Assembly: GCA_006384855.1 (NCBI GenBank)
Contig: VCJN01001858.1
Location: 1-64,000 of the forward strand
DNA from: Tetraselmis striata
Lineage: Eukaryota > Chlorophyta > Chlorodendrophyceae > Chlorodendrales > Chlorodendraceae
Direction of reading: 5' to 3'
Length of the DNA: 64,000 nt
The notes beneath the pieces were generated by a model that saw nothing but the letters and a program-made list of their open reading frames with translations, was not told the DNA's origin and ran no database searches. Shown here piece by piece: positions 22,214 to 59,727 of the stretch (positions are counted from its first letter, which is position 1; each line of letters opens with the position of its first letter). The position numbers and the translations under genes are program-made.

Positions 22214-22217
22214 CCAA

Positions 22218-27417: not shown

Positions 27418-27427
27418 CTTGCAGAAC

Positions 27428-31600: not shown

Positions 31601-32150
31601 TATGAGGGGTCGATAGCTGACAATCTAGGTGCCACACCGGTGTGGTATACGGCTCTCCATATAGTTTATACGACTGCGGCACTGCCACATACACCGCAGT
31701 AACTTTGTCGTAAGGGAATACACGGCACTACTGCATACATTGCAGTGACTGTATATGAAGTAACGCATGACGCGCTTGGTGGTGCCGGCCCGCCGCTGCT
31801 CATACTCGCGGCTTTGCGGAACCCCTCTCTGTCACATGACTCCCCTGCTTTGGAAGTCGCGCATCACGGGACCTCGTCGCCCGTGTAATCTTGCCATGTA
31901 TAAGCGCATATATATTGGGGAGGGGGTGGCAGCTGAGAATATGGTCGGCCATGAGATAAGAATGTCGTATATATACTAGGCCGGCAGTTTACAATCTAGC
32001 CGAACGGCTATGTTATTCGACTCCGTGTATGCATAGAGACTGCGACACTACCACATAGACCGTAGTAACTTCATCAGAACGCATGATGGTGCCGGCCCGC
32101 GGCGCTTATAAACTCGCGGCTTTGCGGACATCCTCTATGTATCACACGAC
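28641..32150 (+). repeat. Satellite core, copy 2 (about three ~588 bp dimers plus diverged monomers)
   Basis: Landmarks at about 28,660, 28,933, 29,247, 29,520, 29,836, 30,111 and 30,424 show the same 275/312 alternation as copy 1, followed by diverged monomers. It has two dimers (about 1,176 bp) fewer than copy 1. Otherwise the order of units and the diverged right edge match. Confidence 0.85.
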
Positions 32151-34987
32151 TTCTCCGCGTGTAGAAAAGGCCAAAACCGGGCTCGCGCACAATCTCGGCG
32201 GCTAGATAGAGAAAAACTGCCCACTGATTGCACCACCCGACTTCGTGCCGGCTTGCCGCTCCCGGTACATGAGGGTACCCGTATGTAGAACCTCGGTCGT
32301 AGCCACTGCTTGATGACATTTGGCGGGATTGCGCCACTACCGCTGGGCGAGCGCGGCGGCTTGCCCGCCGCAGCTCGCGCAGCCGTGGCGCCGCAAATCG
32401 TAGGGTAGTATTATTTTATTAAAGACTACGTGTCAGACATATCGCATTGGTCTGCCGGTAGCGGTACCACACCCCGACGGAGATTTAGTGAGTACAGGGG
32501 AGATTGTAGAGTAATTAGCGACTATTACTCGCTACGAATTATAGTCGCTACCGGTAATGGTAGTCGCTACCCCACAAGATATGCACGCTATACCCGCCGG
32601 CATACATACAACGAGTCGTCGCGACAGGGCTTGCGCACAATCTCGGCGGCTGAAGAAGAATAATAGTTTAAGTGCTATGGGACTGATGTCTACCTTTGTC
32701 TTGATGTCGTCGAGCCCATGCGCATGCATAATACTTCTATGCCGCATTATCCGGGTACTATAAGGCGTGCGGCCGTGTATGGATTTAAACCATGCCTAGG
32801 GCAACAATCTGCGGCGGGGCGCAACAATCTGGGGCTTTACGTAAGCCAATGTGAAGTTCTCAGGCGAGCACCTTGCTAGCAATCGGATTTTGTCATAAAA
32901 GTATGCAACAAATACTTGGACAAGGAAAGTGTTTCAGCCGTGTAGGCATTTACTCCTGCCGAAGGCAACAATCTCCGGTGCAGCACAGCAATCTAGGGCT
33001 CGCCGTTGCGAATATGATGTTAGTACATGAGGGTGTGGCTATTTATCTGTGTCTTATCGTCGAGCCCATGCACATGCATAATACTTCTGTATGCCGCATT
33101 ATCCGGGTACTGCAAGGCGTGCAGCCGTGTATGGATTTAGAACATGCCTAAGGCAACAATCTGCGGCGGGGCGCAACAATCTAGGGCGTTCAGTCCTAAG
33201 CCAAAGTGAAGTTCTCGGGCGAGCACCTCGCTAGCAGTCGTACTTTCTCGTCAAGCCTTTGCACTTTTGTCATACAAGTATGCAACAAATACCCAGACAT
33301 GGAAGGCGTTTCAGCCGTGTAGGCAGTTACCGCCTGCCGAAGGCAACAATCTGCGGCGCAGCGCAACAATCTAGGATTCGCCGTCGCGAATATGATGTAC
33401 CTAGGGGTGTTACTATCCACGAGTATCTTGTCGTCGAGCCCTTGCGCATGGATAATACTTCTCTATGCCGCATTATCCGGGTACTGTAAGGCGTGCAGCC
33501 GTGTATGGATTTAGAACATGCCTAAGGCAACAATTTGCGGCGCAGCCTGCCGAAGGCAACAATCTGCGGCGCAGCGCAACAATCTAGGGCTCGCCGTCGC
33601 CAATATGATGTACCTATAGGGGTGTACCTGTCCACGAGTTTCTTGTCGTGGAGCCCATGCGCATGCATAATACTTCTGTATGTCGTATTATCCGGGTACT
33701 GTAAGGCGTGCCGCCGTGTATGGATATGTTAAAACATGCCTACGGCAACAATCTGCGCGCGGCAGGGTGCAACAATCTAGGGTTTTCCGCAAGCCAACGT
33801 GAAGTTCTCGGGCGAGCACCTCGCTAGAAGTCGTACTCTCGTCAACCCTATGCGCTTTTGTCATACAAGTATGCAAGAAATACCCTGACAAGGAAAGTGT
33901 TTCAGCCAGGTAGGCAGTTACCGTGCATGCCTAACGCAACAATCCTTACTCGCTACCAGTAGTCGCTACCGGTACTGGCACCCTACGATACATATGCACG
34001 CTACACGCCTACACCCGCCGACATACGACTAGTCGTCGCGACAGGGATCGCGCACAATCTCGGCGGGTGAAGAAGAATAATAAAACGGCCCCACTGACTG
34101 CACTTGATTTTGCTTCGCCTTGCCGTCTCCGGTACTACATACGGGGATACAGGTACCCGCCGCATGCTATCTCGGCCGTAGCCACTGCTTGACAACCGCG
34201 TGCGACTGCGCCACGGCTGGACGCGCGCAGGGTTGCCTGCCGCCGCTCACGCAGCCGTGGCGCCGTCAATTGTAGCGTAATACTAGTGATAGCAGCATGC
34301 AAAAAACAATCTGCCGGTGCTGTACCGCGCCCTGACATTGTAGCCAGATTGTAGCCAGATTGTAGCATGCCGTCGTATATCTCTACCAGCTAATGATCTT
34401 GCACGCTACGTAATAGTACCCGCCGCCAAACGATGAGTCGCGACAGGTGAGGGCCACTCGCACAGCAGAATCTCGTTGGCTTAAAATATATTGTAACTGC
34501 CCGCCACAGATTGCACCCGGTTTCGCTTCGGCGTGCCCGCTTGCGACTACACATAGCGACTATATGTGATATTGTGCAAGGCACGGTAGTAATAAGGGTA
34601 TCCGTATTGCATGCTATGTGTATCCATATGATAATGTCTGTCCATGCAGCGGCATCATTCAGTGTACAGGGGTAGTCCCTGTAGTTGGGCACTTCATCCA
34701 TGCAAATCGCAGGCTGCTGTGATATGATATCCAAACGCAGGCGGTGGCGCATGAAGGCGTATGGCAAGTGAAGCGGTGGTGTGCCGTTGTAAAAACCGCT
34801 GTCGACACAATCTACAAAACGCGATCGTGCCGGGGCAAAGATTCCAGTACTTAAGGCAAGTATGCGAAACCCTAAATTCGTCCTTTTTACTACAACGAGA
34901 TTTCGCTCAGTTTGCTCGGATTAGGGCTCAAAAACATAGCCAAAACACGAGCATCGTGATACAATACTTTTATGCTCGCGTTTTGGC
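32151..34987 (-). repeat. R3, inverted ~372 bp satellite and junction sequence, copy 2
   Basis: Matches 12,431-16,027 but lacks about two ~373-bp satellite units. The end (34,001-34,987) is nearly identical to 15,041-16,027 and runs into the minisatellite at the same base. No gene is supported. Confidence 0.8.
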
Positions 34988-35543
34988 CCCCTCCCGACGA
35001 ATCGGTATGTCATCAGTGGGACGAATCGGTCTGTCATCAGTGGGACGAAACGGTCTGTCATCAGTGGGACGAACCAGTATGTCATCAGTGGGACGAATCG
35101 GTATGTCATCAGTGGGACGAAACGGTCTGTCATCAGTGGGACGAAACGGTATGTCATCAGCGGGACGAAACGGTCTGTCATCAGTGGGACGAATCGGTAT
35201 GTCATCAGCGGGACGAAACGGTCTGTCATCAGTGGGACGAAACGGTATGTCATCAGTGGGACGAAACGGTATGTCATCAGTGGGACGAAACGGTCTGTCA
35301 ACAGTGGGACGAAACGTTCTGTCATCAGCGGGACGAAACGGTCTGTCATCAGTGGGACGAAACGGTATGTCATCAGTGGGACGAAACGGTATGTCATCAG
35401 CGGGACGAAACGGTCTGTCATCAGTGGGACGAAACGTTCTGTCATCAGTGGGACGAAACGGTATGTCATCAGTGGGACGAAACGTTCTGTCATCAGTGGG
35501 ACGAAACGGTCCGTCATCAGCGGGACGAAACGGTCTGTCATCG
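34988..35543 (+). repeat. 24-bp minisatellite before methylase copy B (~23 units)
   Basis: Same length and start as the array at 16,028-16,583. Flanks are nearly identical between the copies, yet many units differ at variable positions 14 and 24, so unit types have been reshuffled without a length change. Confidence 0.9.
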
Positions 35544-35590
35544 AGGTACAATCGTTCGGAATGTTGAAATCGGTGCAATTGTTTCTGCAG

Positions 35591-38386
35591 AACCTTCGCA
35601 GATGTTTCGAGAGCTGGTATGCAGATCAGGATGCAACTCGCCCCGGCTTTAGGGCACTTCCGCAAATCAGAGTCGTGAAGGAGTTCAAGAAGTCTGAAGT
35701 TCTTCAAGTTGAACTTGAGAAGATCGGCATCAAAGATGAGAAGAGCAGCGAGTTCTCAAATTTGATTGACCTCTGCTCGCGCCCACAACGGTAAGCTGCG
35801 TACATGATGAAAATTTATCGTGTTGTTAATGCTGCTAGATTCTGACAATTGATTTGCGCAGTGTTTTTGAGCCCCTTGAGCAGATTTCTGAAGCCTACCG
35901 GCATGTGGAGCTCGGGGTTCGAGGATGGGACGAAGCCAGAACCAAACTCGGAGACCTATTTGTGTACTACCAGCAAGAACTCGATAGAGTCAAGCGTCTC
36001 AATTGCGGCAGGCAACTCACCCAAAAGGAAGTGAGGAAGGTTTACGAAGCAATTCGGAAGCCTATCAATGCAATCCTCGATAACAAGAAGTACGGCTTCG
36101 GCAAAGACAGAGCTCACTTCCGAGTCGCCCTCATGGAGGTAAGTTGTGACCGACCCCAGTGTCTTAATCACATGGAATACTATCATTCCTTTCTCCGTAC
36201 TGAAGTTTGTTTTTCGACCCAAGATGTTGGCTTTGGACCCCATGCGCCCTGGCTAGACGAGCCGTCTCTTGCCAAGCAGAGCGACAGCGCGGATCTCCCT
36301 GTGGGCCAGATGTACCTGGTGGTTGGACTGCTCATCCAAGGCGAGCACAGTGTGACCCCGAGCATGTACGAGCTGGCGGATGACATAAAGCATGCCGGCG
36401 ACAATGGCCCCATGGCTATTACGCACACTAACGCGGAGTGGCTCGCGATGATTGAGACCTGGAGGTTTCGCGATCTCTTGCGTCGAGCAAGCATCAAGGT
36501 CATGAATGCCATTGACACGGCCAAGGGCAGGGAGGCAATCCAACTGCTGACGCCGGACGAACCGGCCAGGAACTGGGGGAAATATCTCTCGGACCACATC
36601 ATCGATTGGGATGTGGAAGACAAAGTGTCGGATGAGCAAGCGGCCGCTCGCCTTGACGCCATCACCAAGTTCCGAGCCAAGGTTGATGACCTCGGGCCAA
36701 CAGGCTTCCCCAGAAAGTTCCAAGATTTGCTCAAAGGTGCTCATCGCTCCGGTCCTTTGATGGTCTTGCTGACCCCTCCTGCCAGATGGGGGGACATGAA
36801 ATCCGCCGATTGTCTCACACCACTACCGGTTCGAGAGCATATCGCGGCCACCAACACCACCATCATGAGTGAGGCGTATCGCATCAAGAATCAGATGCCG
36901 GACTTGGTCATCTCCTTCTTCACAGAGTTTGCTCTTCTGGCATGTGCGCCGGAGCTTATCGCGGTTTCCGCTCCGAATGTTTCTAATGAGCTGTGGATAT
37001 CGATGAAGGTAACTAAGATCTTGTGCAACCACAAATGCTCTTCTGAATTTTCGTTGTGAGCTATTAACCCGAATATGCTTTCTAACACACACAGGCCGAG
37101 GCACTTCCGGTGATGCCCAAGGGCTGGGTGGTCGACAAGGATGACAAGGTGTGGTTGAACACGGAGCTTTGCAAGACTTGCATTGTGGAGGGGGACTTCA
37201 AGGCCCCCGCGACAAAACAAGCCGTCGCGGACGCCATGTCGGAAGTTCGTGCCAGAAAGGCAACAGTCTTCATTGCCGACGCGCTTTTCGGAGCTGGTTC
37301 GCACACATGGGACTCGAAGGATGCTGCGTGGGGTACGGACGACTTCAACGACGTGTTTGCTTTCGCCAGGCAAGACAACCCCCACACCCCCGGTGCGTAG
37401 ATGACTGTGCTTTCATTTATCTCATTCCCGATTATCCCCGCGCAGGCAGTTGAATATCCTGGCTGGATATTCTGACGTCCACACTGCTCTCGATGGGTGC
37501 CATTTCTTTATTCACCTCTCGGACCAACAACTTGGATCCGCAATCACAGCCGTTCAAAAACAAGCTGAGGACCTCATCTATCACGTCCTGACTTGGGCCA
37601 AGGATTGCGGGATAAAGATGGGCAGCTCTCTGCGTCACGACGCTGAGTACTACCTCTACGTCAGGAAGCCCCCTCCAAGCATCATAGCTGACAACATCCG
37701 TTTCGATGATCCCCGAAGGTGAGATTTGATCCGTGGAAAATAGCCGGCTTGTATATTCTACTCGCTAAGCCGGTTGTGCCTTTCCAGGTTCTCTACATCC
37801 ATCATGTTGGGTCACTTCAAAGACACAGCGAAATTGAAGGACGAGAACAGACAGACGGTGAACAAGTACCAAAAGCCTATCGCTCTCTTCGCCAAGCACC
37901 TTAAGGTGGCGGCAACAGACGGGACAACAATCGTCGACGTCACAGCCGGAACCGGGACAACCGCGGTGCGTGAGGGGTGCAACCCGGGTGAGTGTCTTAA
38001 TGGGATCAGCATATAAAAATTAACGCCTTGTGCGGTTTGCCACGCCTTTCCAGGTCGCGGCGGCCTTTTCCGTGTGGTGGGACCATATGGATCATAGCTA
38101 CTCGTTCACACACATGAACTTGAAGACGATCCTCATTGACAACCAGAAGACGCAAGTCGTTGGGATGAAGTCCAGGATGACCTCATGGTTCAAAGAGAAG
38201 CCATGGGACGAGACTCAAAGACTGCGTCCAAATGACTTCGAGAAGTGGCCGGGTCTACCCCATCCAATGACCGTGTCAGAGGAGTTCGCATAGCGTCTTG
38301 CGGCGGAGAAAAGGAGGCAAGAGGCGGCAGAGCGCCAAGGGGATTATGTGATCGAAGATGATGATATGTAGTACAATTCCGCCAAA
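35591..38386 (+). pseudogene. DNA methylase-like gene of the transposon, copy B
   Basis: Exons: 35,591-35,790; 35,862-36,138; ~36,223-37,008; 37,095-37,396; 37,446-37,718; 37,788-37,965; 38,054 onward. It is the best-preserved 3' half: the third exon, frameshifted in copy A, is open for over 250 codons. The donor at 37,397 (GTAGAT) and acceptor at 37,445 (CGCAG) join in phase to give GAQLNILAGYSD. The methylase motifs are as in A: ADALFGAGSHTW at motif IV, HFFIHLSDQQLG, QKPIALFAKHL, VDVTAGTGTTA, then VAAAFSVWW. The donor GTGCGT at 37,966 fuses TGTTA directly to VAAAF, as in active methylases; a second donor (GTGAGT, 37,988) is possible. A TAG at 38,291 truncates the acidic tail relative to copy A. 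The 5' exons are missing, replaced by satellite DNA. Confidence 0.75.
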
Positions 38387-38714
38387 TTAGCCGCTCATAT
38401 GTTTTGTCCCGGCTTTGACAGAGTTTCAGCCCCGGACGGCACAAACTACTTGTAGCCATCACGGCCCCCGCACTTTTTTTGTCCCAGTTTGGACAGAGTT
38501 TCAGCCCCCGATGGCGCAAACTTCTTGTAACCATCCCGTTTCCTTCACTCTTGATTTGTCCCTGCTTGGACGGAATTGGTTTCCCCGACTTGGCACAAAA
38601 TGAACCAACCGGCATTCATATTAGCTTGCAATCCCGCTGCTGCCCCCAAACCCTAATTTAGACCTAACCACAATGCACCGCGTGCCTCGGGGCAAAATAG
38701 GTTGCATTACTGTT
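38387..38714 (+). repeat. Subterminal repeats and right terminus of composite element
   Basis: Same structure as 19,414-19,759: TTTGTCCC-initiated ~78 bp repeats followed by CTAATTTAGACCTAACC and the terminal repeat ending TTACTGTT at 38,714, then CCAA. Confidence 0.75.
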
Positions 38715-38827
38715 CCAACGGATAGTGGTACAAAGCCGCGTAAGCCTTAGTTTGCATACTGTAACAATTTCCTTTGCTGCAAACCTTTCCCTTGCCTATG
38801 CTAAAGTCCCTCGCCTAAAGCTTACAA

Positions 38828-40403
38828 AATCCGCCGATTGTCTCACCCCACTACCGGTTCGAGAGCACATCGCGGCCACCAACATAGGCATCAGTAGTGA
38901 GGCGTATCGCATCAAGAATCGGATGCCGGAGTTGGTCATCTCCTTCACAGAGTTTGCTCTTCTGGCTTATCTTCCGAAGTCTTTTGCGGTTTCCGCTCCG
39001 AATGTTTCTGATGAGCTGCGGATATCGATGAAGGTAAAATTTGGGTTTAACCACAAATGCTCTTCTGAATTTTCATTGTGAGCTATAAACCAAATCGCTT
39101 CTTAAAACACTGCCACATGCTGCGGAACTTTCGGTGATGCCCAAGGGCGAAGAGGTCCACAAGGATGACATTATCTATTTGAACACGGAGTTTTTTGCAA
39201 GACTTGCATCGTGGAGGGGGACTTCAAGGCTCCCGCGACAAAACAATTCGTCGTGGAAGCCATGTCGGAAGTTCGTGCCAGAAATGCCACATTCTTCATT
39301 GCCGACGCGCTTTTCAAAGCTGACTCGCACACCTGGGGCTCGAAGGATGATGCGTGGGGCACGGACGACTTCAACGACGTGTTTGCTTTCGCTAGGCAAG
39401 ATATCCCCCACCACCCGGGTGCGTAGATGACTGTGCTTTCATTTACCCGATTTCCGATTTCCCCGCAGGCAGTTGAATATCCTGGCTGGATATTCTGACG
39501 TCTACACTGCTCTTCATGGGTGCCATTTCTTCATTCACCTCTCGGACCAGCAGCTTGGATCCGCAATCACGGCCATTCGGAAACAAGTTGAGTACCTTGT
39601 CTATCACGTCATGACTTAGGCCAAAGATTGCGGGATGAAGATGGGCAGTTCTCCGCGTCACGGCGTTGAGTACTACCTCTACGTCAGAAAACCCATGCCA
39701 AGCATCATAGCTTACAACATCCGTTCCGATGATCCCCGAAGGTGAGATTTGATTCGTGAAAAGTAGCCGGCTTGTTTTTATCATCACTCGCTAAGCCGGT
39801 TGTGCCTTTCTAGGTTCTCTACATCCATTATGCTCGGCCACTTCAAAGACACAGCGAAATTGAAGGACGAGAACAGACGAGAACTGACCGTGAACATGTA
39901 CCAAAAGCCTATCGCTCTCTTCCTCAAGCACCTAAAGATGGCGGCAACCGACGGGACAACAATCGTCGACGTCGCAGCCGGAACCGGGAAAACCGCGGTG
40001 CATGAAAGGTGCAACCCGGGTGAGTGACATAATAATGCGATCAACATAAAAAATAAACGCCTTGTGCGGGTTGCCACGCCTTTTAGGTCGCGGCGGCCTT
40101 TTTTGTGTGGTGGAAATAACATGCATCCGACCTACTCGTTCACACACATGGACTTGAAGATGGTCCTCATTGACAACCAGAAGACGCAAATAAATCGCTG
40201 GGATGAAGTCCAGGATGACCTCATGGTTTAAAGAGAAGCCATGGGACGAGACTCAAATTGCGTCCATATGATTTCGAGAAGTGACCGGGTCTACCCCGTC
40301 CAATGACCGAGGAAGAGGAGCGGCAAGAGCGTGCAGCGGCGGAGAAGAGGAGACTCGAGGCGGCAGAGCGTCGAGGGGATAATGTGCTCAAAGATGATAT
40401 GTA
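38828..40403 (+). pseudogene. DNA methylase-like gene fragment, copy C
   Basis: Begins inside the third exon (SADCLTPLPVREHIAATN) after ~110 bp of unrelated sequence and keeps the rest in order: VPKSFAVSAPNVSDELRISMK-like end, the motif IV region (FIADALFKADSHTWGSKD), LNILAGYSDV, motif I as VDVAAGTGKTAV, and the 3' end near DNVLKDDM. Frame changes and stops occur, including a 1-nt shift near 39,196, TAG inside the fifth exon near 39,618, and indels near 40,190 and 40,258. Motif I has Lys in place of a Thr. The acceptor before LNILAG is a clean CCCCGCAG. Clearly decayed; homology to A, B and D identifies it. Confidence 0.7.
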
Positions 40404-40543
40404 GTACACTTTTTCCACGAAATAAGCCGCTTATTTGTTTTGTCCCGGCTTTGACGGAGTTCCAGCCCCCGACAACGGCACAGACTACTTGCAGCCATCA
40501 CTTTCCCCTCGCCCTTTTGTTTGTAATATTAATAAATTGGAAT
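40404..40543 (+). repeat. Truncated 3' flank of copy C abutting element D
   Basis: Only the first subterminal repeat (TTTTGTCCCGGCTTTGACGG) is present. It stops near 40,520 and meets, in reverse orientation, the methylase-side end of element D. Copies C and D therefore face each other tail to tail. Confidence 0.6.
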
Positions 40544-40566
40544 ATGCAACCTATTTTGTACCGAGG

Positions 40567-40857
40567 TACGCGGTGCATTGTGGTTAGGTCTAAATTAGGG
40601 TTTGAGGGCAGCAGTGGGATTGATAGCTAAAATGAATGCCGGTTGGTTCATTTGTGTCAAGTCGGGAAACCAATTCCGTCCAAACAGGGACAAATCAAAA
40701 CAGTGAAGGAAACGGAATGGTTACAAGAAGTTTGCGCCGTTGGAGGTTGAAACTCCGTTCAAACTGGAACAAGCATAAGGGCGAGGGGGATGTGCTGGCT
40801 ACAAGTAGTTTGTGCCGTCGAGGGCTGAAACTCCGTCAAAGCCGGGACAAAAAATCT
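40567..40857 (-). repeat. Methylase-side subterminal repeats of element D
   Basis: Reverse complement of the ends at 19.41-19.76 and 38.39-38.71 kb: GGTTAGGTCTAAATTAGGG, then copies of a ~78 bp repeat carrying GGGACAAATC, CCGTTCAAACTGGAAC and CCGGGACAAAA. It also forms a long inverted pair with 53,486-53,716. Confidence 0.7.
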
Positions 40858-41765
40858 GAGCGGCTAATTTGGCGGAATTGTAATGCATATCATCATCTTC
40901 GGTCACATACTCCCCTCGACGCTCTGCCGCCTCGAGTCTCCTCTTCTCCGCCGTTGCACGCCCTGCCCGCTCCTCTTCCTCGGTCATTGGAAGGGGTAGA
41001 CCCGGCCACTTCTCGAAGCCATCTGGACGCAGTCTTTGAGTCTCGTCCCATGGCTTATCTTTGAACCATGAGGTCATCCTGGACTTCATCCCAGCGATTT
41101 GCGTCTTCTGGTTGTCAATGAGGATCGTCTTCAAGTTCATGTGTGTGAACGAGTAGCTATGATCCATATGGTCCCACCACACGGAAAAGGCCGCAACGAC
41201 CTAAAAGGCATGGCAAACCGCACAAGGCGTTTATTTTTTATGTTGATCCCATTATGTCACTCACCCGGGTTGCACCCCTCACGCACCGTGGTTGTCCGGT
41301 TCCGGCTGTGACGTCGACGATTGTTGTCCCATCGGTTGCCGCCATCTTTAGGTGCTTGGCGAAGAGAGCGATAGGCTTTTGGTACTTGTTCACCGTCTGT
41401 GTGTTCTCGTCCTTCAATTTCGCTGTGTCTTTGAAGTGACCCAGCATAATGGATGTAGAGAAATTGGAAAGGCACAACCGACTCAACGAGTGATGATAAA
41501 TACAAGCCGGCTACATTCCACGAATCAAATCTCACCTTCCGGGGTCATCGGAACGGATGTTGTAAGCTATGAGCGGGGGTTTTCTGACGTAGAGGTAGTA
41601 CTCAGCGTCGTGACGCAGAGAACTGCCCATCTTCATCCCGCAATCCTTGGCCCAAGTCAAGACGTGATAGATGAGGTCCTCAACTTGTTTTTGTACGGCT
41701 GTGATTGCGGATCCAAGCTGCTGGTCCGAGAGGTGAACCTAGAAACGTTTGATTTGATTTGATTT

Positions 41766-41858
41766 GAGATTTGATTCGTGAAAAGTAGCCGGCTTGTTTT
41801 TATCGGCTTAGCGAGTGAGGATAAAAACAAGCCGGCTACTTTTCACGAATCAAATCTC
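41766..41858. repeat. 39-bp perfect inverted repeat inside methylase D
   Basis: Arms 41,766-41,804 and 41,820-41,858 (starting GAGATTTGATTCGTG) are exact reverse complements around a 15-nt loop. The arms are intron sequence. On either side lie two copies of the exon encoding the QLGSAIT...DCG region, so a local duplication occurred together with an inversion. Confidence 0.9.
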
Positions 41859-42783
41859 ACCTTCGGGATCATCGGAACGGATGTTGTAAGATTGAAGCTT
41901 GGCAGGGGCTTTCTGACGTAGAGGTAGTACTCAACGCCGTGACGCGGAGAACTGCCCATCTTCATCCCGCAATCTTTGGCCTAAGTCATGACGTGATAGA
42001 CAAGGTACTCAACTTGTTTCCGAATGGCCGTGATTGCGGATCCAAGCTGCTGGTCCGAGAGGTGAATGAAAAAATGGCACCCATGAAGAGCAGTGTAGAC
42101 GTCAGAATATCCAGCCAGGATATTCAACTGCCTGCGGGGAAATCGGAAATCAGGTAAATGAAAGCACAATCATCTACGCACCCGGGTTTCGGAGAGTAGC
42201 TTGCCTGGCGAAAGCAAACACGTCGTTGAAGTCGTCCGTACCCCACGCAGCATCCTTCGAGCCCCATGTGTGCGAGTCAGCTTTGAAAAGCGCGTCGGCA
42301 ATGAAGAATGTGGCATTTCTGGCACGAACTTCCGACATGGCGTCCGCGACGGCTTGTTTTGTCGCGGGAGCCTTGAAGTCCCCCTCCACGATGCAAGTCT
42401 TGCAAAGCTTCGTGTTCAAATAGATAATGTCATCCTTGTGGACCTCTTCGCCCTTGGGCATCACCGGAAGTTCCTCGGCCTGTGTGTATTTGAAAACAGA
42501 TTCGGGTTAACAGATAGCTCATAATGGAAATTCAGAAGAGCATTTGTGGTTGCACAAGATCTTGCCTTCATCGATATCCATAGCTCATCAGAAACATTCG
42601 GAGTGGAAACCGCGATAACCTCCGGAGCACATGCCAAAGGAGCAAACTCTGTGAAGAAGGAGATGACCAAGTCCGGCATCTGATTCTTGATGCGATACGC
42701 CTCACTCCTTATGTTGGTGTTGGTAGCGGCGATATGCTCTCGAACCGGTAGCGGTGTGAGATAATCGGCGGATTTCATGCCCT

Positions 42784-42808
42784 CCCCCCCCCCCCCCCCC
42801 CCCCCCCC
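42784..42808 (+). repeat. 25-nt C run within a coding exon of copy D
   Basis: Copies A and B have six C at this place (minus-strand codons WGD). D has CCCT followed by 25 C, a net gain of 22 bases that shifts the frame, so reading changes from the WGDMKSADCLTP path. Confidence 0.85.
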
Positions 42809-44058
42809 ATTTGGCAGGAGGGGTCAGCAAGACCATCAAAGGACCGGAGCGATGAGCACCTTTGAACAACTCCTGGAACTTTCTGGGGAAGCATGTTGGC
42901 CCGAGGTCATCAACCTTGGCTCGGAAGTTGGTGATGGCGTCAAGGCGAGCGGCCGCTTGCTGGCCCGACACTTTGTCTTCCACATCCCAATCGATGATGT
43001 GGTCCGAGAGATATTTCCCCCAGTTCCTGGCCGGTTCGTCTGGCGTCAATTGTCGGATTGCCTCCCTGCCCTTGGCCGTGTCAATGGCATTCATGACCTT
43101 GGTGCTTGCTCGACGCAAGAGATCGCGAAACCTCCAGGTATCAATCATCGCGAGCCACTCCGCGTTGGTGTGCGCAACAGCCATGGGGCCTTTGTCGCCG
43201 GCATGCTTTATGTCATCCACCAACTCGTAGAGGTTTGGGGTAACATTATGCTCGCCTTGGATAAGCAGTCCAACCACCAAGTACATCTGGCCCACATGAA
43301 GATCCGCGTTGTCGCTCTGCTTGGCAAGAGACGGCTCGTCAAGCCAGGGCGTACCGGGCCCAAGCCAGCATCTTGGGTCGAAAAACAAAACTTCAGTACG
43401 GAGAAAGGAATTTAGTATTTCATGTGATTAATAGACACGGGAGTAGGTCGCAACTTACCTCCATGAGGGCGACTCGGAAGTGAGCTCTGTCTTTGCCGAA
43501 GCCGTACTTCTTGTTATCGAGGATTGCATTGATAGGCTTCCGAATTGTTTCGTAAACCTTCCTCACTGCCTTCTGGGAAAGTTCCCTGCCGTAATTGAGA
43601 CGCTCGAGACTAGCGAGTTCATTCAGGTAGTGTTTATAGAGCGCGTGGAGTTTTTCGGCGGCTTCGTCCCATCCTCGAGCGCCGAGCTTCACATGCCGGT
43701 AGGCTTCAAAAACCTGCTCAAATGGCTCAAAAACACTGCGCAAAACAATTGAGTCAGAGCCCGGCAGCATTATCAAGATGACATTTCATCATGTAGGCAG
43801 CTTACCGTTGTGGGCGCGAGCAGAGGTCAATCAAATTTGAGAACTCGCTGCTCTTCTCATCTTTGATGCCGACCTTCTCAAGTTCAACTTGAAGAACTTC
43901 AGACTTCTTGAACTCCTTCACGACTCTAATTTGCGGAAGTGCCCTAAAGCCCGGACGAGTTGCAACATGTTGGGCATACCAACTTTCGAAACATCTGCGA
44001 AGGTTCTGCACAAACAATCTCATTTCCAATATACCGAACGATTATTTCCCACTGATGA

Positions 44059-44545
44059 CATACCAATGTTGTCCCGCTAATGACAGACCGTTTTGTCCCG
44101 CTGATGACAGACCGTTTCGTCCCGTTGATGACATGCCGTCTTGTCCCACTGAGGACGGACCGATTTCGTCCCGCGGATGACAAAACGTTTTGTCCCATTT
44201 ATGACAAAACGTTTTGTCCCACTGATGAAATGCCGATTTCGTCCCGCTGATGACAAAACGTTTTGTCCCACTGATGACATACCGTTTCGTCCCACTGTTG
44301 ACAGACCGTTTCGTCCCACTGATGATATACCGTTTTGTCGCGCGGATGACAAAACGTTTTGTCCCACTGATGACATACTATTATCGTCATCCTCCCGCTG
44401 ATGACATACCGATTCGTCCCACTGATGACAAACCATTTTCGTCCCACTGATGACATACCTATTTTGTCCCGCTAATGACATGCCGTTTCGTCCCACCGAT
44501 TGACAGACCTATTTCGTTCTGCTGATGACAGACCCATTTTAACCC
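44059..44545 (-). repeat. 24-bp minisatellite array D1 (~20 units)
   Basis: Degenerate units, minus strand GGGACRAAACGGT + NTGTCATCAGY. It lies in the intron between the exon ending ITKLTVGPNK and the exon starting NLRRCFESWY. This is the array at which copies A and B are truncated. Confidence 0.85.
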
Positions 44546-45311
44546 ACTGACGACAGAACGGTTTTTGTAAAACTTGGCGCTTATTTGGTCCCACGGTCAG
44601 CTTAGTAATAATGTGGGAGATTTGGTCGCTCACCATGAGTTTGTGCATGGACGTGTCTCCCACGACGGTGTGACCCGCCTCGTTGAGCTTCATAGACATG
44701 TAGCGGCAAACTTCCGGCGAGAGGCCGATGTACATCTTGTCCGACGTGAAGCGGATGCCTTTGTTGGTTTCGTAGATTTCCGGGTAGTTTCGCTTCACCA
44801 TGAGCTTTGCCTCCCGTCTGTGGCTGCCTTCGATGTTGGCTTTAAGCGCGCCCTGGGAGCCTAGAAACTTGATGATGACTCGATTTCTGGCTTGTAGGAA
44901 CTTGCATCCGCCAACCTCGGCTTCTCCCCGCCTTCGAATGCTGCGACTAGGTCCTTGAAGTTGGCCATGGTCAGAGCGAGGGGCTCATACTCTCCGGAGG
45001 ACACTCTGCCCTTGTGAACCACTGGAAAGGACACTGAGCAATTCTAGGCGGATAGGAAAGGATTCCTCTGAATAACAAATGCAAAAGGCATGTCAGTAAG
45101 TTGCATTGTGTATTAATTTTGATTTGTTTACGCATTTGATCCGGATAGCTACAACAGGTTATGATAGGCTTTTACCTTGTAGCTTTGCGCCACCATATTG
45201 CAGTCTTGCAGCTTTTGGGAACGGAATTCAAGCTCCTGCGGCGGAGCGACGAACTGATCGGATGGGAAGCTGACAATGTGAGGTAGCCCCGTACCCTTGT
45301 CAGAGATGAGG

Positions 45312-45450
45312 TTGACTATGTCGGCGTGTAACATGTTGATGTCGCCACCGTGAGATGTCTTCACCTCTGGATCAGCAATCTCGACTATGTCGGCGTGTAA
45401 CATGTTGATGTCGCCACCGTGAGATGTCTTCACCTCTGGATCAGCAAGCT
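45312..45450 (-). repeat. 69-bp tandem duplication in a methylase D exon
   Basis: Two adjacent near-identical copies encode TSHGGDINMLHADIV (23-residue period), keeping the frame. Confidence 0.8.
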
Positions 45451-46374
45451 CGACTCCGAGGTGGCCTTAAGAGATCTAGTCGACGGCACCGGTGTTGGAG
45501 AAGCCATTCAAGGCCAGCGGGACGAGAACGTATCGACGTATGGAAGCGCGTTCTCAAAATCCATGTCAATGTTGGCCAAGTCATCGATATTAACCATACC
45601 ATCCGCGATACCTGTCAACGCCAGCGCCAGCACATTGCGCTCGACCAAAGTCCATGCGTAGTAAGATTGGAACCGCGGCTGGGAGGAGAGTGGCGGCTGG
45701 ATCGCGTGAAGTAGCAACCTCTCAAAGACGACTTCGATCCCGATCTCCTTGTACATTGTCAAGCGATAAGGTTCCAAACTGATCTGCGGAAACAAGCATG
45801 GGGATATTAATACTTATTGACACACGATATTGACACACGAATTCAGAAACCTCAACTGTGTTACTCACCTCGTAGCGTCCGGCCGAGATCAGCTCGATAC
45901 GGTTGATCTTTCCGAGGCATGCGAGAAGTGGCCCCTTCGGATCATCGAACGGAAAAGTCCTTGCCAGTCAGCAGGCTTGCCCTGTGCAATTCGATGTACA
46001 AATATATTTGTACCTCAACACTTGTATCTTTGAACCAGTGGATACTCCAGCTCCGCAAAGTGCTCGGTGTAGCCCCCATCTACATATTATTGTGATTCGT
46101 CGCTGTCGTCAAAGAAGTCACTGAAAGAGGCGATTGTCATCAGCTTTGTCTTCCTCTCGGGTCTAGAAGTGCCGGTGAGGTCGAGAGCTTGCTTGCGCTT
46201 CTCTGCCGCCCGTTGCCTCCGTTCTTCCTCTGTGCCAAAGATCTCTCCATCCGTGCACATTTTGAGGAATTCAGGAACCGTTCTTCTCGGAGCCTCGGTA
46301 ATAGAGGCTCGAGAACCAGAGGCTCGAGAACCCGACGCTTGCCCGGTAGTCGGGGCTGGAGTCTCGAGCTCGGG

Positions 46375-46545
46375 CTCCGGCTCTGGCTTGGCCTAAGTGG
46401 GCTCTCTTTTAGGCTCGGGCTCTGGCTCGGGCTCATTGGGCTCTGTTTCAGGCTCCGGCTCCGGCTCGGGCTCCGGCTCGGGCAATCGCTATGTGGGCTC
46501 AGTTTCAGGCTCCGGCTCAGGCTCCGGCTCGATCCCGATCGCTGG
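46375..46545 (-). repeat. Glu-Pro dipeptide-coding hexamer repeat
   Basis: GGCTCS hexamers on the plus strand encode (EP)n in the methylase D reading direction, interrupted by in-frame stops. It is probably a flexible acidic linker in the ancestral protein. Confidence 0.6.
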
Positions 46546-47404
46546 CTCTGTTTCCTGTACTTAAGGCGGCCCTTTAGACAAAGAAGAGCCTTGAGTCGGG
46601 GAACCTGTACAAAATGAGTAGAGAGTACTCAACACATTTGCAGTGGGCATCACGATTAACTACTGAACGGTATCGCCATGCACCATCAAAAGCCAATCGT
46701 GATTTTCTTACTTGGGGATCCCGATTTACCGGCTGCTTGCGACGCGGTTGCCTGCGCCAATTGACGACCTGTTGGATCGTCAGATAACTCACTAACGAGA
46801 AATCGAAGGGATTGGGAAGGCGAGGATTGATAATTTCAGTTACAATTCCCTGGAGTCACAATCGTCTCTGAAACCTTTTACTTTCCCTTGGATTCCTTTG
46901 GAGCTTGAGGCGCTACTGGCTCATGTGCGCGTCCTTTCGAACCTGTCAAAACACATAATTTCAATCTATTCAGATACCACAGTGCACACACAAAAATCAT
47001 ATGATTGGAGAGGCAAGGACCTGATTGATAGTAAGCTTGCATGAACTTTTCGTACTCGATCAGCCTTCGCGCTATCTGCATTTAAGCATGTGAGAGGACT
47101 TGGCCGCTCTTGATTCGGGCCATGAAAAGAGCGGCGGCCGATCTTTCTCCTTGCGAGTGCGTGCCGTAAGCCGGCACTCTACCTCCTAAAAGGCTCGGTT
47201 TCCAGGGGTTACCTTATGCGTCAGCGCCCGCTCTAGCTGCGGATTCTGAAGCTGAGGCTGCACGGCTCTTCTTCCCCGCCGGCTGCTCGGGCACACAAGG
47301 TGACACCTTGTGTTTTCTCCCGACTAGCGCTCCGAGCGCATCGAATTCTTTTGCTTTCTCAGTATGTTTTGATGTCCGCTTGGACCTTCAACCTATCAAT
47401 ATCA

Positions 47405-48372
47405 GATTATGTCAGAAATTGTCGTCCCGCTAATACATACCGTTTTCGTCCCACTGGTGACAGACCGTTTCGTCCCCCTGGTGACATACCTATTTCGTCC
47501 CACTGATGACAGATGGTTTCGTCCCACTAATGACATACCGTTTCGTCCCACAGACGATAGACTGTTTCGTCCCACCGATGACAGACCGTTTTGTCCCACT
47601 GATGACAGACCGTTTCGTCCCACTGATGACAGACCGTTTCGTCCCACTGATGACAGACCGTTTCGTCCCACTGATGACATATGGATTCGTCCCATTGATG
47701 ACAAACCGTTCGTCCCACTGATGATGAGTTGATGACATACCCTTTCCTCCCTCTGATGACAGATGGTTTCGTCCCACTGATGACAAACCGTTTCGTCCCG
47801 CTGATGACAGATGGTTTCGTCCCATTGATGCCAGACTGTTACGTCCCACTGATGACAGAACGTTTCGTCCCGCTGATGCCAGATGGTTTCGTCCCATTGA
47901 TGCCAGACTGTTTCGTCCCACTCATGACATACCGTTTTGTCCCATTGATGACAGACCTATTTCGTCCCACTGATGCTAGATGGTTTCGTCCCATTGATGC
48001 CAGACTGTTTCGTCCCACTGATGACAGAACGTTTCGTCCTACTGATGACATAACGTTTCGTCCCACTGATGACATACCGTTTCGTTCCACTGATGACAGA
48101 CCTATTTCGTCCCGCCGATGACAGATGGTTTCGTCCCATTGATGCCAGACTGTTTCGTCCCACTGATGACATACCGTTTTGTCCCACTGATGACATACCG
48201 TTTCGTCCCACTGACGACATATGGTTTCGTCCCACTGAAGACCAGCCGATTTCATCCCAGTGATGACATACCGTTTTGTCCCACTGATGACAGACCGTTT
48301 CGTTCCACTGATGACAGACCTATTTCGTCCCACTGATGACAGACCATTTCGTCCCGCTGATGACAAAACTAT
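47405..48372 (-). repeat. 24-bp minisatellite array D2 in intron 1 of methylase D (~40 units)
   Basis: Between exon 1 (donor at 48,745) and the exon beginning near 47,365. The minus strand reads GGGACGAAACGGT. Variants such as CATCTGTCATCAG and AGTCTGGCATCAA units recur in blocks. Confidence 0.85.
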
Positions 48373-48806
48373 TTCCAATAGATTAAGTATTGCGGTTCAA
48401 TAATGTTATGTCTGTAACTACTGCGCTTGACACTAATATTAAACCACCCCTGACGGGGGAGTACAGGTAAAAGGTCCACATGGCCGCCCTCCACCCCGCA
48501 CCCCCTTCCACCACCAATTAGCATCCTTACTGATCCCGCCGCGCTGCCTCGACGGGACGTAATACTACCCTGCAGGACATGATACCGCTCGTCTCGTTTG
48601 GGTTTCTATTCCCACTCGTCTGACTATCCACCTCGAATGGTCCTAGATTACACCGCTTCTACAGGGAACCCTAACCGATCTCTATAGATCTGGCCGCATC
48701 ACGCGTCGAGCAGGCAGGCAACTACTGTACGCACACGCAACTCACGTGGGGTGGCGTCGTCCTTGTCTTCCTTGTCCTTGGCAGGCTCGTTCTTCTTCGG
48801 CGCCAT

Positions 48807-49443
48807 TCTAGCGGTAGGTTGGTTGATGCGGTAGATGAGCGGATTTCCGGGTGGGTAGCGGTGAGGGAGAGGTGGAAATGACATGGTCTCCGTATGCCGC
48901 CGCTCTGACCCCGGTTGGACCAACGGCGCGCGTGCGCGCACTATAGTGCACCTCGTCGTCGTCATCAGGTTCATATATTTTGCACCGCGACGAATATACA
49001 TGGCAAACTACTGCGACTATATTACTATTACTAGAAGATTATATATTCCCTACTCGAGAGTCATAACGGTACGAGAGTACAGTAGCGTGGCAATTATATT
49101 CCTTTATGGGATGATATATTCCTTGGATTGGATTCGGGTGTACATACTAGTACAAAACTATTAACGATACACGAAAGAAATACGAAATAACACGAAGCAC
49201 TACCACGGAACTATTTCCTTAATATTTTGTGTAGTACGATTTACAAAACCTCATCTATACGGCATCGTGTATTCTGGCTCAGTACCGATCCGGTGTTTTG
49301 AGTCATCAGGTTCAATTATTTTGACCCGTAGTTGGATACTATGCACCCCGGTCAACGGCCCGTCCGAGAACGGTCATCGGCCGTCACTCTTCCTCACCAC
49401 AGATCACAGTCCTTCACCGCCCCCACTCGCCCCACGCTGCAGC
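48807..49443. promoter_or_regulatory. Divergent promoter region between methylase D and transposase T2
   Basis: About 640 bp separates the two start codons. It contains an AT-rich stretch (49,010-49,210) with ATATTACTATTACTAG and TATATTCC, and the palindrome GTGCGCGCACTATAGTGCAC near 48,933. The half nearest T2 is also present upstream of T1. A shared promoter is inferred from gene orientation only. Confidence 0.5.
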
Positions 49444-52400
49444 ATGGCGGCGGTCGAAAGCATGGCCTCTTCTCCAGGATCCGGCGCGTCGGACACTACA
49501 GTTACATTACCGCCGTGTTCGTGCCGCTGCGGGTACTCGTGTGATTGCGACGCGCGTGCTAGTGATCGTAAGGAGGTTGAGAAAAGGAAGTACACATGGG
49601 GCAAGGGCTCCGATGACGTCGCCGACAGCGATACTGGCAAGGGCTCGTCTCTGATCAGCAATCGCACCTCTCGCGACTATATCCGTCCATGCTCGCCAAG
49701 GAGGCTAGCGAGCAGTCGCCGTGCTGTTCGCGAAAGTGCGTGCACAAGCTATACACTCAGTGCAGAGGCCCTCGTTGATGCCGTGATGGACCGTGAGTTG
49801 ACCGTATACTCTGGCAATCAGAACCGCTCCTTTGACCGGCTCGCTCAGGTTCTCAGGCGTGGTTTCGAGTCGTCATCCGACAAGTGCGATTACACGTTTG
49901 ATCACGGTGGCTACTTGCGCTCTTTCGATCATCGAGACCCCATCTACACGTACCGTGTGGGCGTGCATGGGAGGTCTTGCATCAGGTCTCGAAACTCAGA
50001 CGTCTCGTGATCCAGCGGTCGGTGGTGGATAACGAGCCCACGTACATCAGGCAGCGCAAGAAGTACGAGAGCAGACAAACCGGACCGAGGGAGCATGTGC
50101 GCATGTTTCTCGAGCACTTCTCAGATGATCTCGGTCACGTCGAGATCATGCCTTTTCGCGACGGCAACAGCGAGACCTTCAAGAAGCACTTACCTCCCTG
50201 GATTACCAAGATTTGCGTCTACTACTATTACAAGTCGTGGGCTGAGGACGACAACGCCATTCTCCGTGTTAAGTAAGGCCCACACTGTCCAGCTGATGAC
50301 ATGCCGATTTCGTCCCGCTGAGGACAGAACGTTTCGTCCCGTTGATGACAAACCGTTTCGTCCCACTGATGACAAACCGATTTCGTCCCGCTGATGCCAG
50401 CACGTTTCGTCCCACTGATGACAGACCGTTTTGTCCCACTGATAACAGAACGTTTCGTCCCGCTGATGATAGACCGTTTCGTCCCACTGATGATAGACCG
50501 ATTCCGTCCCGTTGATGACAGACCGATTTGTCCCACTGAAGACCGGCCGATTTCGTCCCGCTAATGACATACCGATTCTGTCCCGCGGATAAAATGCCGA
50601 TTTCATCGCCCCGATGAGAGACTTTTTTTTTATCTCTCCGATTACTCATCGTCACGCTGATACATCCATGTTTTCTCGTTGATGATATAAGTTTTGGTCT
50701 TACTTGTTACGGACCTGTTTCGTGCCGCTCGTGACGGGACCGTTGATGATAGTTATGGTGATGAGACTAGTTTGCCCCGCTGATGATATATCGTTTTCGT
50801 GTATTGACGGAACTAGTTAATCCCACTATCGATATAATTATTTCGACCCACTTTAGACCGAACTTTTCTGTCTCACATTATGAGACCTAATTTGTATACC
50901 GACCTATTCTGCCCCTGCCGCTTGATAAATTTGGCTACCAAGAGCGAAGTGAAGCTCGCGTCGTTCGACACTTTCCGCCGGACTTGGAAGATTTCCCGGA
51001 TGTCACCACGCCGAAGGTGAAGCGATTAAGCCACTGTCCCATTTGCGCGGCGGGCAAAGCGCTCAGATTAAGCTCGCGAGATTTGCACAAAGGACATGAC
51101 GCCAGAGGAACGTCAAGTGCACCGTCAACATCGTCAGCTCGTGAGGCGTCAGGTCAGAGCTGAGCAGAAGGTCCACCTCGAGAGAGTGCGCCAAGAACGA
51201 AGGGATCTGAACAACGCCGTCTTCCAATCACGCCTTGGCCATGGAAACTTCTTCTTCTTCGAAAATGATAGCATGGACTCCGCGAAGACCCTGCTGCCTC
51301 ACTGGGTTCGCATCCCCAAGACTGTGAAGCCCGACATGCTCCTCAAGTACCACCTCACCTGTGTGAAGTACGACGGATACCGCCCGGACGACATCTACTA
51401 CTGCACCAACACCATCCCCCACGATTCGTCCACGACGTGCACTCTAATATGGATCACGATCATGAAGATGAGCTCGTTAGCCTCCCGACAAATTCGCCGT
51501 GGTTGTCCAGTAGCCGTGGACAGATGAAATTTGATGTGCGATGCGGGAAATTCAACACTGTGGTAGAAAGATTCCGTACATCAAAATTCACATGGACAAC
51601 ACCGTCAAGGAGGACAAGAATAGGAACGTGGCGGCCCTCTGCAATTGGCTTGTGTCTATCGGCATCTGCGACGTCATTCATTTGGTCTTCCTGCCTGTTA
51701 GGCACACTCACGAACGGGTTGACCAGATCTTCATCCGCATCAGTCTTGCGCTATCTCGCAGCTCTGCCTACACAATCGAGGCCTTTCTTGACTTGGTGGC
51801 GAAGGCATTCTCGCCCACTCCGGAGATTGCTGAGCTCTCATTCTCCCTCGACTTCTCCGAGTGGTTAAGGCCCCATTTCCAAGACCACATTCAAGACATC
51901 ATGAAGCCGCACAAATTCGAGTTCACCCGTGACGACGCCGCCGCGTCTGGCGGCTCGATGAGCACCGCCTTGTGGTCCAACACACCGCTTTCCGAGCCCG
52001 TGCAGATCTTTAAGAATGTGCCAATTGGGACGCCCGAGATTCGTGCGGGCCGGCCCTTTTGTACGCTCTCCACGACAAAAAGAAGCCCGACGCGTTGAAG
52101 GTCCAGAGGTCCTTGGATGACTTCAAGAAGGTTAGGTCGTACATCACGGACCTGGCGGTCCAGTGGCACTTCTCCCCAGTCGAGCGCGAGAGCTGAAAGA
52201 ATTTGCACGACGACTTGGATGAGATGCAAACTCCTCCTTCGGCAGCTTTCTCCGGGTTCTGGCCGCAACGGAAAGAGGAAGTTGACGACTTCTTGCGCGA
52301 GCACGGGCAGACCGCGCCCGCTGAGGCACGTCACACGATGGCTACTAACGCAGATCTCAACAATGCCGAAGCCGCTCGCGTTGAAGCCGAGGTTCGTGCT

Positions 52401-53200
52401 CAAGTACTTCAAGATGACAGCGCCTTCCAGGGAGTTCACGCCGGCGCCAAGGAGAGGCTTCATGACAACACATCGCCCAGCGATGCAAAGGGCTCGAACC
52501 TCGTTGTTATTGACGTCTCCGATGTGAGTCCCATTGTTTGTCATTTTTGTCCTTCACATGACAAAACAACTTGGTTCATCTACCTTGCTTGCTATTTTGT
52601 CCCAACTGGGACCAAAAATGGCGTGGCGTCTTGCTCGGGACTGACATTGATAGCTCGTGGTCTTGGCCATATCATTAGGTGCATGAGGAAGACAAGTGCC
52701 CTGAAACTCTTGGTGATTGGGAGTCGAGATTCGTCATCGGGCTTGTGAAGTCGCGCGAGACCACCGAAGACACGTTGACCGTGGCCGCATACGAGCCTTT
52801 CCATACCAATGCAAAGGGCAAACCTCTCATGCCCCTATGGTTGTACGCGCAGACAAAAGGAGGGAAGAAGCCAGTTGACACAAACTGGGAGAAGTGCCTG
52901 ACGCTTCCTTGGAAGCTTGTTGAAGCCGTCCCCCTATCGTACGCAAAGGCCATCCACGACGCGTCGGGAAGTCGCGAGGTGTTCAACGAGGACGGCACCA
53001 TGGTCAGAAAGAAGTGGTACGGTAAAAGCGTCCATGTCGTGAAGACATACGCGCAAACTAGGTGGCAAATCAGCCAGCCACGAAACAACTGCGTCCACGT
53101 CATGTCAACCACCCCAGCGCAACGCAAACCCGGCGGAGTCGTCAAGTTTAACGCAGCCACGAAGAAGGACTTGCTTGAGTTGGGGATGCTCAACGAATAA
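49444..53200 (+). pseudogene. DUF7869-type transposase-like gene, copy T2
   Basis: Same architecture as T1: exon 1 from MAAVESMASS (49,444) with CSCRCGYSCDC; exon 2 with NDSMDSAKTLLPHW (~51,265); exon 3 with MDNTVKEDKNRN (~51,592) and FLPVRHTHERVDQIF; exon 4 (52,679-53,200), fully open. Where T1 has a stop, T2 reads HIQDIMKPHKF. T2 has its own lesions: a 5-nt insertion near 49,953, 4-nt and 1-nt losses plus a TAA near 50,985-51,067, acceptor AG to AA near 50,929, intron 2 donor GT to AT (51,468) and acceptor CAG to CGG, a 1-nt loss near 52,060 and a TGA near 52,195. The changes ENKN to EDKN and GHTH to RHTH hit signature residues. Confidence 0.75.
50292..50640 (-). repeat. 24-bp minisatellite in intron 1 of T2 (~14 units)
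   Basis: The plus strand reads CTGATGACAAACCGTTTCGTCC-type units, so GGGACG is on the minus strand, opposite to the coding strand, as in T1. Degenerate relatives continue to about 50,850. It is much shorter than the T1 array (~54 units). Confidence 0.85.
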
Positions 53201-53485
53201 ACTACTAGCAACGTCTTGTGGCTAGCCGGTGGATTTAATCATCATAATAAATATTGATTTGCTTCATCTTGTTCCATTTTGGACAAATGCTCCAAAACCA
53301 GCATTGGATATGCGTCGCGGTTGGCATGCACGCTGATGAATGTTGCACTGCACCCTAGGTCTACAAACCCAAGCTACACCACCCGTGAGTCTGAAGTACT
53401 GATAGTAGCCCCGAGAACTAGGGTATAAACAAACCCTACAGTGCAAAATGAATTCCGCGGTGCAAAACAGGTTAAGTTTACTGTT
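53201..53485 (+). repeat. Transposase-side terminus of element D
   Basis: Matches the reverse complement of 22,218-22,510, including GGGTATAAACAAACCCTA and the terminal TTTACTGTT. Confidence 0.7.
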
Positions 53486-53716
53486 TTGTCCTAGTTTGAA
53501 CGGAGTTTTAGCACCCGGCGGCACAAACTTCTTGTAACCATCACGTTTCCTTCACTCTTTTAATTTGTTCCTGTTTGGACGGAATTGTTTTCCCGACTTG
53601 GCACAAATGAACCGAGCGGCATTCATATTAGCTATCCCACTGCTGACGCAAACCCTAATTTAGACCTAACCACAATGCACCGCGTGCCTCGGTACAAAAT
53701 AGATTACTTTACTGTT
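53486..53716 (+). mobile_element. Solo methylase-side terminus attached to element D
   Basis: About 231 bp equivalent to the ends of copies A and B: TTGTCCTAGTTTGAACGG, GGCACAAACTTCTTGTAACC, CTAATTTAGACCTAACC, then the terminal repeat ending TTTACTGTT at 53,716. It directly abuts the transposase-side terminus, with no coding sequence. It may be the residue of a second element or of an internal deletion. Confidence 0.65.
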
Positions 53717-59255: not shown

Positions 59256-59727
59256 TCTTGGCGCCGCGCTGCCCCGGCCGCCGCTGTCTTGGCGCCGCGC
59301 TGCCCCGGCCGCCGCTGTCTTGGCGCCGCGCTGCCCCGGCCGCCGCGCCTTGGCGCCGCGCTGCCCCGGCCGCCGCGCCTTGGCGCCGCGCTGCCCCGGC
59401 CGCCGCGCCTTGGCGCCGCGCTGCCCCGGCCGCCGCTGTCTTGGCGCCGCGCTGCCCCGGCCGCCGCTGTCTTGGCGCCGCGCTGCCCCGGCCGCCGCTG
59501 TCTTGGCGCCGCGCTGCCCCGGCCGCCGCTGTCTTGGCGCCGCGCTGCCCCGGCCGCCGCTGTCTTGGCGCCGCGCTGCCCCGGCCGCCGCGCCTTGGCG
59601 CCGCGCTGCCCCGGCCGCCGCGCCTTGGCGCCGCGCTGCCCCGGCCGCCGCGCCTTGGCGCCGCGCTGCCCCGGCCGCCGCGCCTTGGCGCCGCGCTGCC
59701 CCGGCCGCCGCGCCTTGGCGCCGCGCG
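59256..59727. repeat. 30/31-bp GC-rich minisatellite, 16 units
   Basis: Each unit opens CTTGGCGCCGCGCTGCCCCG and closes GCCGCCG plus either CTGT (31 bp) or CGC (30 bp). The two types occur in blocks. On the minus strand 30-bp units give a 10-residue Ala/Arg/Gln/Gly repeat, while 31-bp units rotate the frame. It overlaps the 3' portion of a candidate minus-strand gene. Confidence 0.9.

Follow-up and report, generated by a model that had tools for sequence, protein, structure and literature searches.

We report that an element in the green alga Tetraselmis striata is probably a two-gene cut-and-paste DNA transposon, in which a DUF7869 transposase is combined with a methylase-like partner encoded by the element itself. 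It was recognized in a stretch of 64,000 nucleotides (contig VCJN01001858.1 of assembly GCA_006384855.1, positions 1 to 64,000 of the forward strand; "the window" below), which is part of contig C1499 of a 224-Mb assembly. At two loci in the window, copies B and D, transposase and methylase exons lie on opposite strands and are read outward. The DUF7869 protein, as a DDE transposase, would cut at inverted repeats of ~30 bp and leave 4-bp target duplications. The partner would contribute a beta-class amino-methyltransferase-like domain that keeps motifs I and X and has a motif IV of the form D-x-x-aromatic, without the two prolines.

Ends, target duplications, and genome-wide pairing

Copy B (22218-38714, no strand assigned) retains both ends around a replaced interior, together with the transposase gene; of the methylase gene, it has the 3' half alone (model residues 788-1594). 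Its terminal inverted repeats are at 22218-22247 on the transposase side (plus strand) and at 38685-38714 on the methylase side (minus strand), and the copy is flanked by CCAA at 22214-22217 and 38715-38718. Copy D (40544-53485, no strand assigned) is old, near-complete, and collinear with the whole element at 85%-94% identity. Damage affects its terminus on the methylase side, and its flanks showed no target duplication. An earlier reading of the window from its letters alone (the sequence-only reading) had assigned both loci the same divergent gene pair and the same two ends. The divergent, outward arrangement stands, but copy B is missing the methylase 5' half, and one end of copy D is damaged.

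The inverted repeats are ~30 bp long, and in five complete copies outside the window they start at both ends with AACAGTAAT, followed by AACCTATTTTGC. With one mismatch allowed, the genome contains 235 methylase-side and 234 transposase-side ends (reversed-pattern control, 0). When ends were paired from about 100 listed places per end, 36 spans had both ends, after exclusion of C345 and C264, which would span about 24 and 28 kb, and of pairs in the wrong orientation (C67, C343, C597). An exact 4-bp target duplication flanks 25 of the 36, copy B among them, and none has a longer duplication; shuffled flanks gave a mean of 0.76 and a maximum of four. There are 24 different duplicated words among the 25 spans, C483 and C613 being copies of one insertion. 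Inverted repeats with a target duplication of fixed length are the marks by which a cut-and-paste DNA transposon is recognized, and the element has both. Among the matches listed, both genes were seen in at least 17 of 30 spans, and in at least 13 of the 22 of those with a duplication.

The two genes also keep company when the ends are ignored. A divergent transposase match lies within 20 kb of 71 of the 102 best methylase-exon matches (median distance, 7.65 kb); three of the remainder are in another orientation, and 28 have no transposase among the matches listed (the count used 179 listed transposase places, and the initial counts were 457 and 548 candidates). Of the 52 cluster representatives of the transposase in the public annotation, 14 have a methylase representative at an adjacent gene number, compared to 0.16 expected. 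Two trivial readings were rejected: chance motif matches, given >200 matches per end and >100 scored matches per gene genome-wide, and two unrelated adjacent repeats, given the common ends, target duplications, and spacing. The proposal that the pair forms one mobile unit is supported by the common ends, the 4-bp duplications, and the pairing genome-wide.

A second, diverged family

A genome search with PF01555 returned a few stronger methylase genes, a near-identical set at about 38 bits, and dozens of window-family copies at 26-29 bits. By eye, some of the stronger genes are bacterial or viral in look. The 38-bit set is a paralogue of the window methylase domain (29% over 230 columns; the exon scores 38.0), and about 11 kb from its methylase places lies a diverged DUF7869 transposase (TP2; 85.6 and 50.2 bits). 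The pairing count used 46 of the 154 matches to the family 2 methylase (MT2), all scoring above about 300 bits, and the first 98 among 161 TP2 matches. On this basis, a TP2 match occurs within 25 kb of 18 of the 46 methylase places, 17 of them divergent (chance, about 0.02 per place). Nine weaker methylase relatives include three with a TP2-type match within 25 kb, two of these divergent. In a comparison of 20 proteins, the transposases of the two families (TP1 and TP2) are sisters with a support of 1.000 and 39% identity. Because a second family has the same pair with transposases only 39% identical, the pairing must be old rather than a recent capture. The sequence-only reading had held that a lack of association elsewhere in the genome would speak against it; the pair is found both genome-wide and in this second family.

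The putative transposase

The exons of both genes were modeled by hand. In copy B, the transposase is on the minus strand and, by tblastn of the spliced model, has exon 1 at 26205-27030 (model residues 1-275), exon 2 at 24238-24783 (residues 276-457, with the NDSMD block), exon 3 at 23178-24176 (residues 451-784, with the MDNT and GHTHE blocks and the DUF7869 match), and exon 4 at 22514-23032 (residues 784-956). In copy D, it is on the plus strand at 49444-53197 (blocks 49444-50267, 50922-51494, 51541-52526, and 52679-53197). Both are disrupted, copy B by one in-frame TAG (exon 3, within the DUF7869 match) and copy D by frame breaks. The closest annotated proteins are from T. striata itself, at 97%-98% identity in the ten top rows.

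The assignment to DUF7869, made initially from three sequence blocks, is confirmed by the profile (PF25273), which scores 149.6 bits (E 1e-43) over a cut-off of 26. The blocks themselves were only partly as first described: both copies carry NDSMDSAKTLLPH (24403-24441, minus strand, and 51264-51302, plus strand), but MDNTVRENKN (24084-24113) and FLPVGHTHERVDQ (23979-24017) are exact only in copy B, and copy D instead reads MDNTVKEDKN and FLPVRHTHERVDQ. In an alignment of 40 proteins, the three acidic/His blocks are conserved and contain conserved D, D, and E residues that may form the catalytic triad; the motifs are also present in TP1, TP2, and Mytilus. The predicted fold is DDE-integrase-like; none of the 50 VIA matches listed falls outside the DDE/integrase group, although this does not speak against any other superfamily. 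The DUF7869 profile, the sequence motifs, and the fold prediction together point to a DDE transposase that would cut at the ends described above.

This could be a new transposase superfamily. Elements of the KDZ group (Kyakuja/Dileera/Zisupton) have a KDZ domain in the transposase and 8-bp target duplications. In the T. striata protein, Pfam at E≤10 gave only DUF7869 and a chance match to NinB, and the duplications are 4 bp. Sola2 also has 4-bp target duplications, which are described as AT-rich (PMC3627910). No AT-rich bias is seen by eye in T. striata. Membership in the Sola superfamily is a possibility.

The methylase-like partner

The partner is about 1,400-1,600 amino acids long in two hand-made splice models. 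In copy B, its 3' half (residues 788-1594) is at 35585-38368 on the plus strand (blocks 35585-35791, 35848-37020, 37092-37415, 37435-37968, and 38054-38368), and in copy D the gene is at 40886-48806 on the minus strand, with the first block at 48806-48747 and the last at 41200-40886. The closest annotated proteins are again from T. striata (80%-90% identity in the six top rows). Among 74 and 20 matches (8,000 candidates scored each), the one relative from outside the T. striata genome was a metagenome protein (P0117).

Two details of the gene model deserve mention. The open reading frame (ORF) at 35839-37059 was considered as a single exon and dropped, because its first part (VFEPL-EYYH, at the start of the block 35848-37020) evolves as if noncoding, with a ratio of nonsynonymous to synonymous substitution rates (dN/dS) of 0.90-0.99, and because the consensus of annotated models goes from MHKLL straight to DVGFGPH. 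For the stretch QLNIL-AIT, where the hand splice and the annotated splice differ, we kept the former because the family 2 paralogue has this stretch in an unbroken exon.

The C-terminus had been read as beta-class methylase-like, a description that is supported apart from motif IV. The hand splice matches PF01555 at 29.7 bits (cut-off, 26.7), aligned from profile position 47 on, but the annotated models (six scanned of 74) fall just under the cut-off at 23.6-26.2 bits. The same region matches phrog_67 (4e-9) and CcrM (3e-4). The predicted structure is too poor to use (pLDDT 42), and sequence searches of the PDB gave no useful match. Motif I is clear (DVTAGTGTT, in all 10 proteins where it was located), as is motif X (QKPIALFAKHL), and by sequence the order is IV-like, X-like, I, as originally read.

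Motif IV is another matter. The beta-class consensus is D/N/S-P-P-Y/F/W. The hand splice has IADALFG at the corresponding place, 158 residues upstream of motif X; in 52 proteins the site reads DALF (48), DALL (two), or is deleted (two). The assignment is supported by the distant family 2 paralogue, which aligns across the site with LIADSNYGL (DSNY). Two further relatives, both under the PF01555 cut-off, have ADCPR and ADARP there (placed by eye). These readings (DALF, DSNY, DCPR, and DARP) indicate that the aspartate is retained and the two prolines are not, and the Pro-Pro is gone in every relative where the motif could be placed. DPPY or DLPY is found in other beta-class genes of the assembly (C1010, C803, C1597:15473). 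One of them (L092, G000:C1010:99804-100724) is a methylase with canonical IDPPYNTGKDF, in a long uninterrupted ORF with bacterial-looking neighbors, and its contig is possibly a bacterial contaminant. Two others (L095 and L096, on G000:C803 and C1597) are ORFs that carry DLPYGETG, and next to each is one that by eye resembles a C5-type methylase.

Selection on the partner and its possible role

For the last 324 residues of the partner, dN/dS between copy D and younger copies is 0.34-0.56 in frame and 0.64-1.12 in shifted frames, and for pairs with copy C it is 0.38-0.40 versus 0.71-1.37. It should be noted that 15-codon windows with ≥45% amino-acid differences were dropped as frameshifted, which left, for example, 269 of 440 codons. 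Without this filter, pairs with copy D give whole-gene values of 0.51-0.66 (methylase) and 0.42-0.44 (transposase). Transposase dN/dS is 0.21-0.35, and the motif IV exon is looser (0.53-0.90). Some comparisons count against constraint on the partner: the N-terminal methylase pair of D and c2110 shows no difference between frames (0.65 in frame, 0.59 shifted), and 60 codons of residues 831-1270 in copy C give 0.62-0.75. Judged from these substitution patterns overall, the partner gene is under selection at the protein level.

Our leading suggestion, which we regard as tentative, is that the partner is a DNA- or cofactor-binding accessory that acts on element DNA, probably in anti-silencing or in regulating transposition, and is not a canonical N6-adenine or N4-cytosine methylase. 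That it marks the element's own ends or affects its silencing, as first suggested, is best treated as a working hypothesis.

It is unlikely, in our view, that the partner works as an active amino-methyltransferase whose motif IV is unusual, methylating arrays or ends and thereby protecting the element or tuning transposase binding and silencing. The loss of the consensus Pro-Pro in all placeable relatives, set beside the DPPY and DLPY of other genes in the assembly, argues against activity. On the other hand, the protein retains motifs I and X in beta-class order as well as the motif IV aspartate, with F or Y three places later (DALF, DSNY), and one report describes Symbiodinium retrotransposon DNMTs that can methylate CG de novo (PMC5890265).

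We consider it quite unlikely that the partner belongs to the transposition complex (recognizing ends or arrays, or choosing targets), with the methylase fold as a DNA-binding platform only. Its presence beside the transposase in both of the deeply split families would fit such a role, as would the retention of ends and arrays in shortened derivatives, some of which have both ends and no catalytic exons. However, one 7.3-kb copy (L089, G000:C70:47930-55290) with a 4-bp duplication has kept the transposase side and lost most of the methylase gene, so the partner is not needed in cis.

In eight long copies (c1399, c1496, c1870, c2110, c238, c2644, c2760, and c2891; L009-L024), the methylase half differs by 1%-5% and the transposase side, starting at exon 2, by 0.2%-1.4%. 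This suggests element-to-element exchange or unequal rates, although the copies were picked by transposase similarity, which favors young transposase halves and adds to the contrast (c994 and c1240, cut by contig ends, were left out for gene 2). A chance-captured passenger with no role would suit this contrast and the stops in gene 2 of many copies, but is very unlikely given in-frame purifying selection in several exons and the presence of the gene in two families.

The 24-bp tandem arrays

Both genes carry arrays of a 24-bp repeat in their introns. In copy B, they are in transposase intron 1 (24898-26193, minus strand) and upstream of the methylase exons (34996-35542, minus strand); in copy A, described below, at 16036-16582 (minus strand); and in copy D, in a methylase intron (44047-44555), the first methylase intron (47422-48365), and transposase intron 1 (50287-50622), all on the plus strand. 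All 119 units in the window follow the orientation of the transposase gene, even where the intron is in the methylase gene. The same is true of all 501 units in the eight long copies, every one of which has arrays. Exact 35-base array matches number 3,329 in the genome (reversed control, 0), and 92 of 100 listed array places are near a listed match to gene 1 or gene 2. Shortened copies at two sites (C586 with and C200 without a 4-bp duplication) retain both ends and arrays, one array being inverted.

These observations suggest a role at the DNA level, and the arrays would then serve as a candidate binding site of the partner, which is speculative; amplification without function is a possible alternative. 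With little confidence, we also propose a broader picture, in which a superfamily-level DDE lineage (DUF7869, 4-bp duplications) has long kept a partner of methyltransferase fold with a reshaped catalytic motif, and in which this partner reads or marks the 24-bp array, for escape from silencing or assembly of the transposition complex.

Other copies and features of the window

Copies A and C had been described as carrying the methylase side alone, and this is correct. Copy A (16625-19759, plus strand) holds the methylase-side end with the 3' half of the gene, and copy C (38827-40523, plus strand) is a methylase-side fragment between copies B and D. To these can be added a fifth fragment (53484-53716, minus strand), a methylase-side end that abuts copy D. 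The insert in copy B (27418-34990, no strand assigned) lies where the methylase 5' half would be and is common to copy A; it had no match among 13 other stretches compared. The replaced interiors of A and B (about 7258-16029 and 27418-34990) contain tandemly repeated units of about 280 and 370 bp and are about 97%-99% alike in unmasked parts. Between copies A and B are retroelement-like ORFs (20088-21831) that we take, by eye, to be integrase-like. A 30-bp tandem array of high G+C content (98% matches) occupies 59257-59726.

Relation to known systems

DUF7869, a domain of unknown function that also occurs in molluscs, gains a testable role here, as a transposase with known ends and target duplication. 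The element adds a nuclear-genome DNA transposon to the mobile elements with methyltransferase genes. The partner's catalytic motif is changed while its gene is under selection, which sharpens the question of what mobile elements do with methylase-like proteins. As the element is abundant and partly young, the alga itself is directly testable.

DUF7869 proteins of Mytilus edulis and Mercenaria mercenaria (PF25273) have the same blocks (IDGxDxxKTxLPH, DNC/TxxENKN, and VGHTHE) and common cysteines, and the relatives compared are about 20%-25% identical to the T. striata transposase. Pfam states no function for the domain, whereas the T. striata protein is tied to ends, a target duplication, and a predicted DDE-like fold. 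The word DUF7869 is absent from the literature searched, subscription papers aside. No description of its pairing with a methylase was recognized among the titles and abstract openings listed, subscription papers and Repbase aside.

Several known elements are comparable, as far as the available parts of the reports go. Plant VANDAL elements encode a protein that regulates their own silencing (PMC12730594). They likewise combine a transposase with such a regulator, but the transposase is of the MuDR type. The VANDAL regulator is not known to be a methylase, and short motif arrays occur in VANDAL. TET/JBP genes occur in fungal DNA transposons of several superfamilies (PMC12730594), again an epigenetic-enzyme gene in a DNA transposon, but with other transposases and the opposite chemistry (acting on the methyl group). 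In Symbiodinium LINE/DIRS-Dnmt elements and in DIRS with a Dam-like N6A methylase (PMC5890265), protist mobile elements likewise have a DNA-methyltransferase gene, but these are retroelements with reverse transcriptase and cytosine or Dam-like enzymes. Mariner elements of algal giant viruses encode a transposase together with an endonuclease and a methyltransferase (Bao and Jurka 2013, PMC3627910) and are likewise DNA transposons with their own methyltransferase gene. The viral elements have a Mariner transposase with C5 or Methyltransf_26 enzymes and are located in viruses, whereas the T. striata element has a DUF7869 transposase, an N6/N4-type domain with an altered motif IV, and many nuclear copies.

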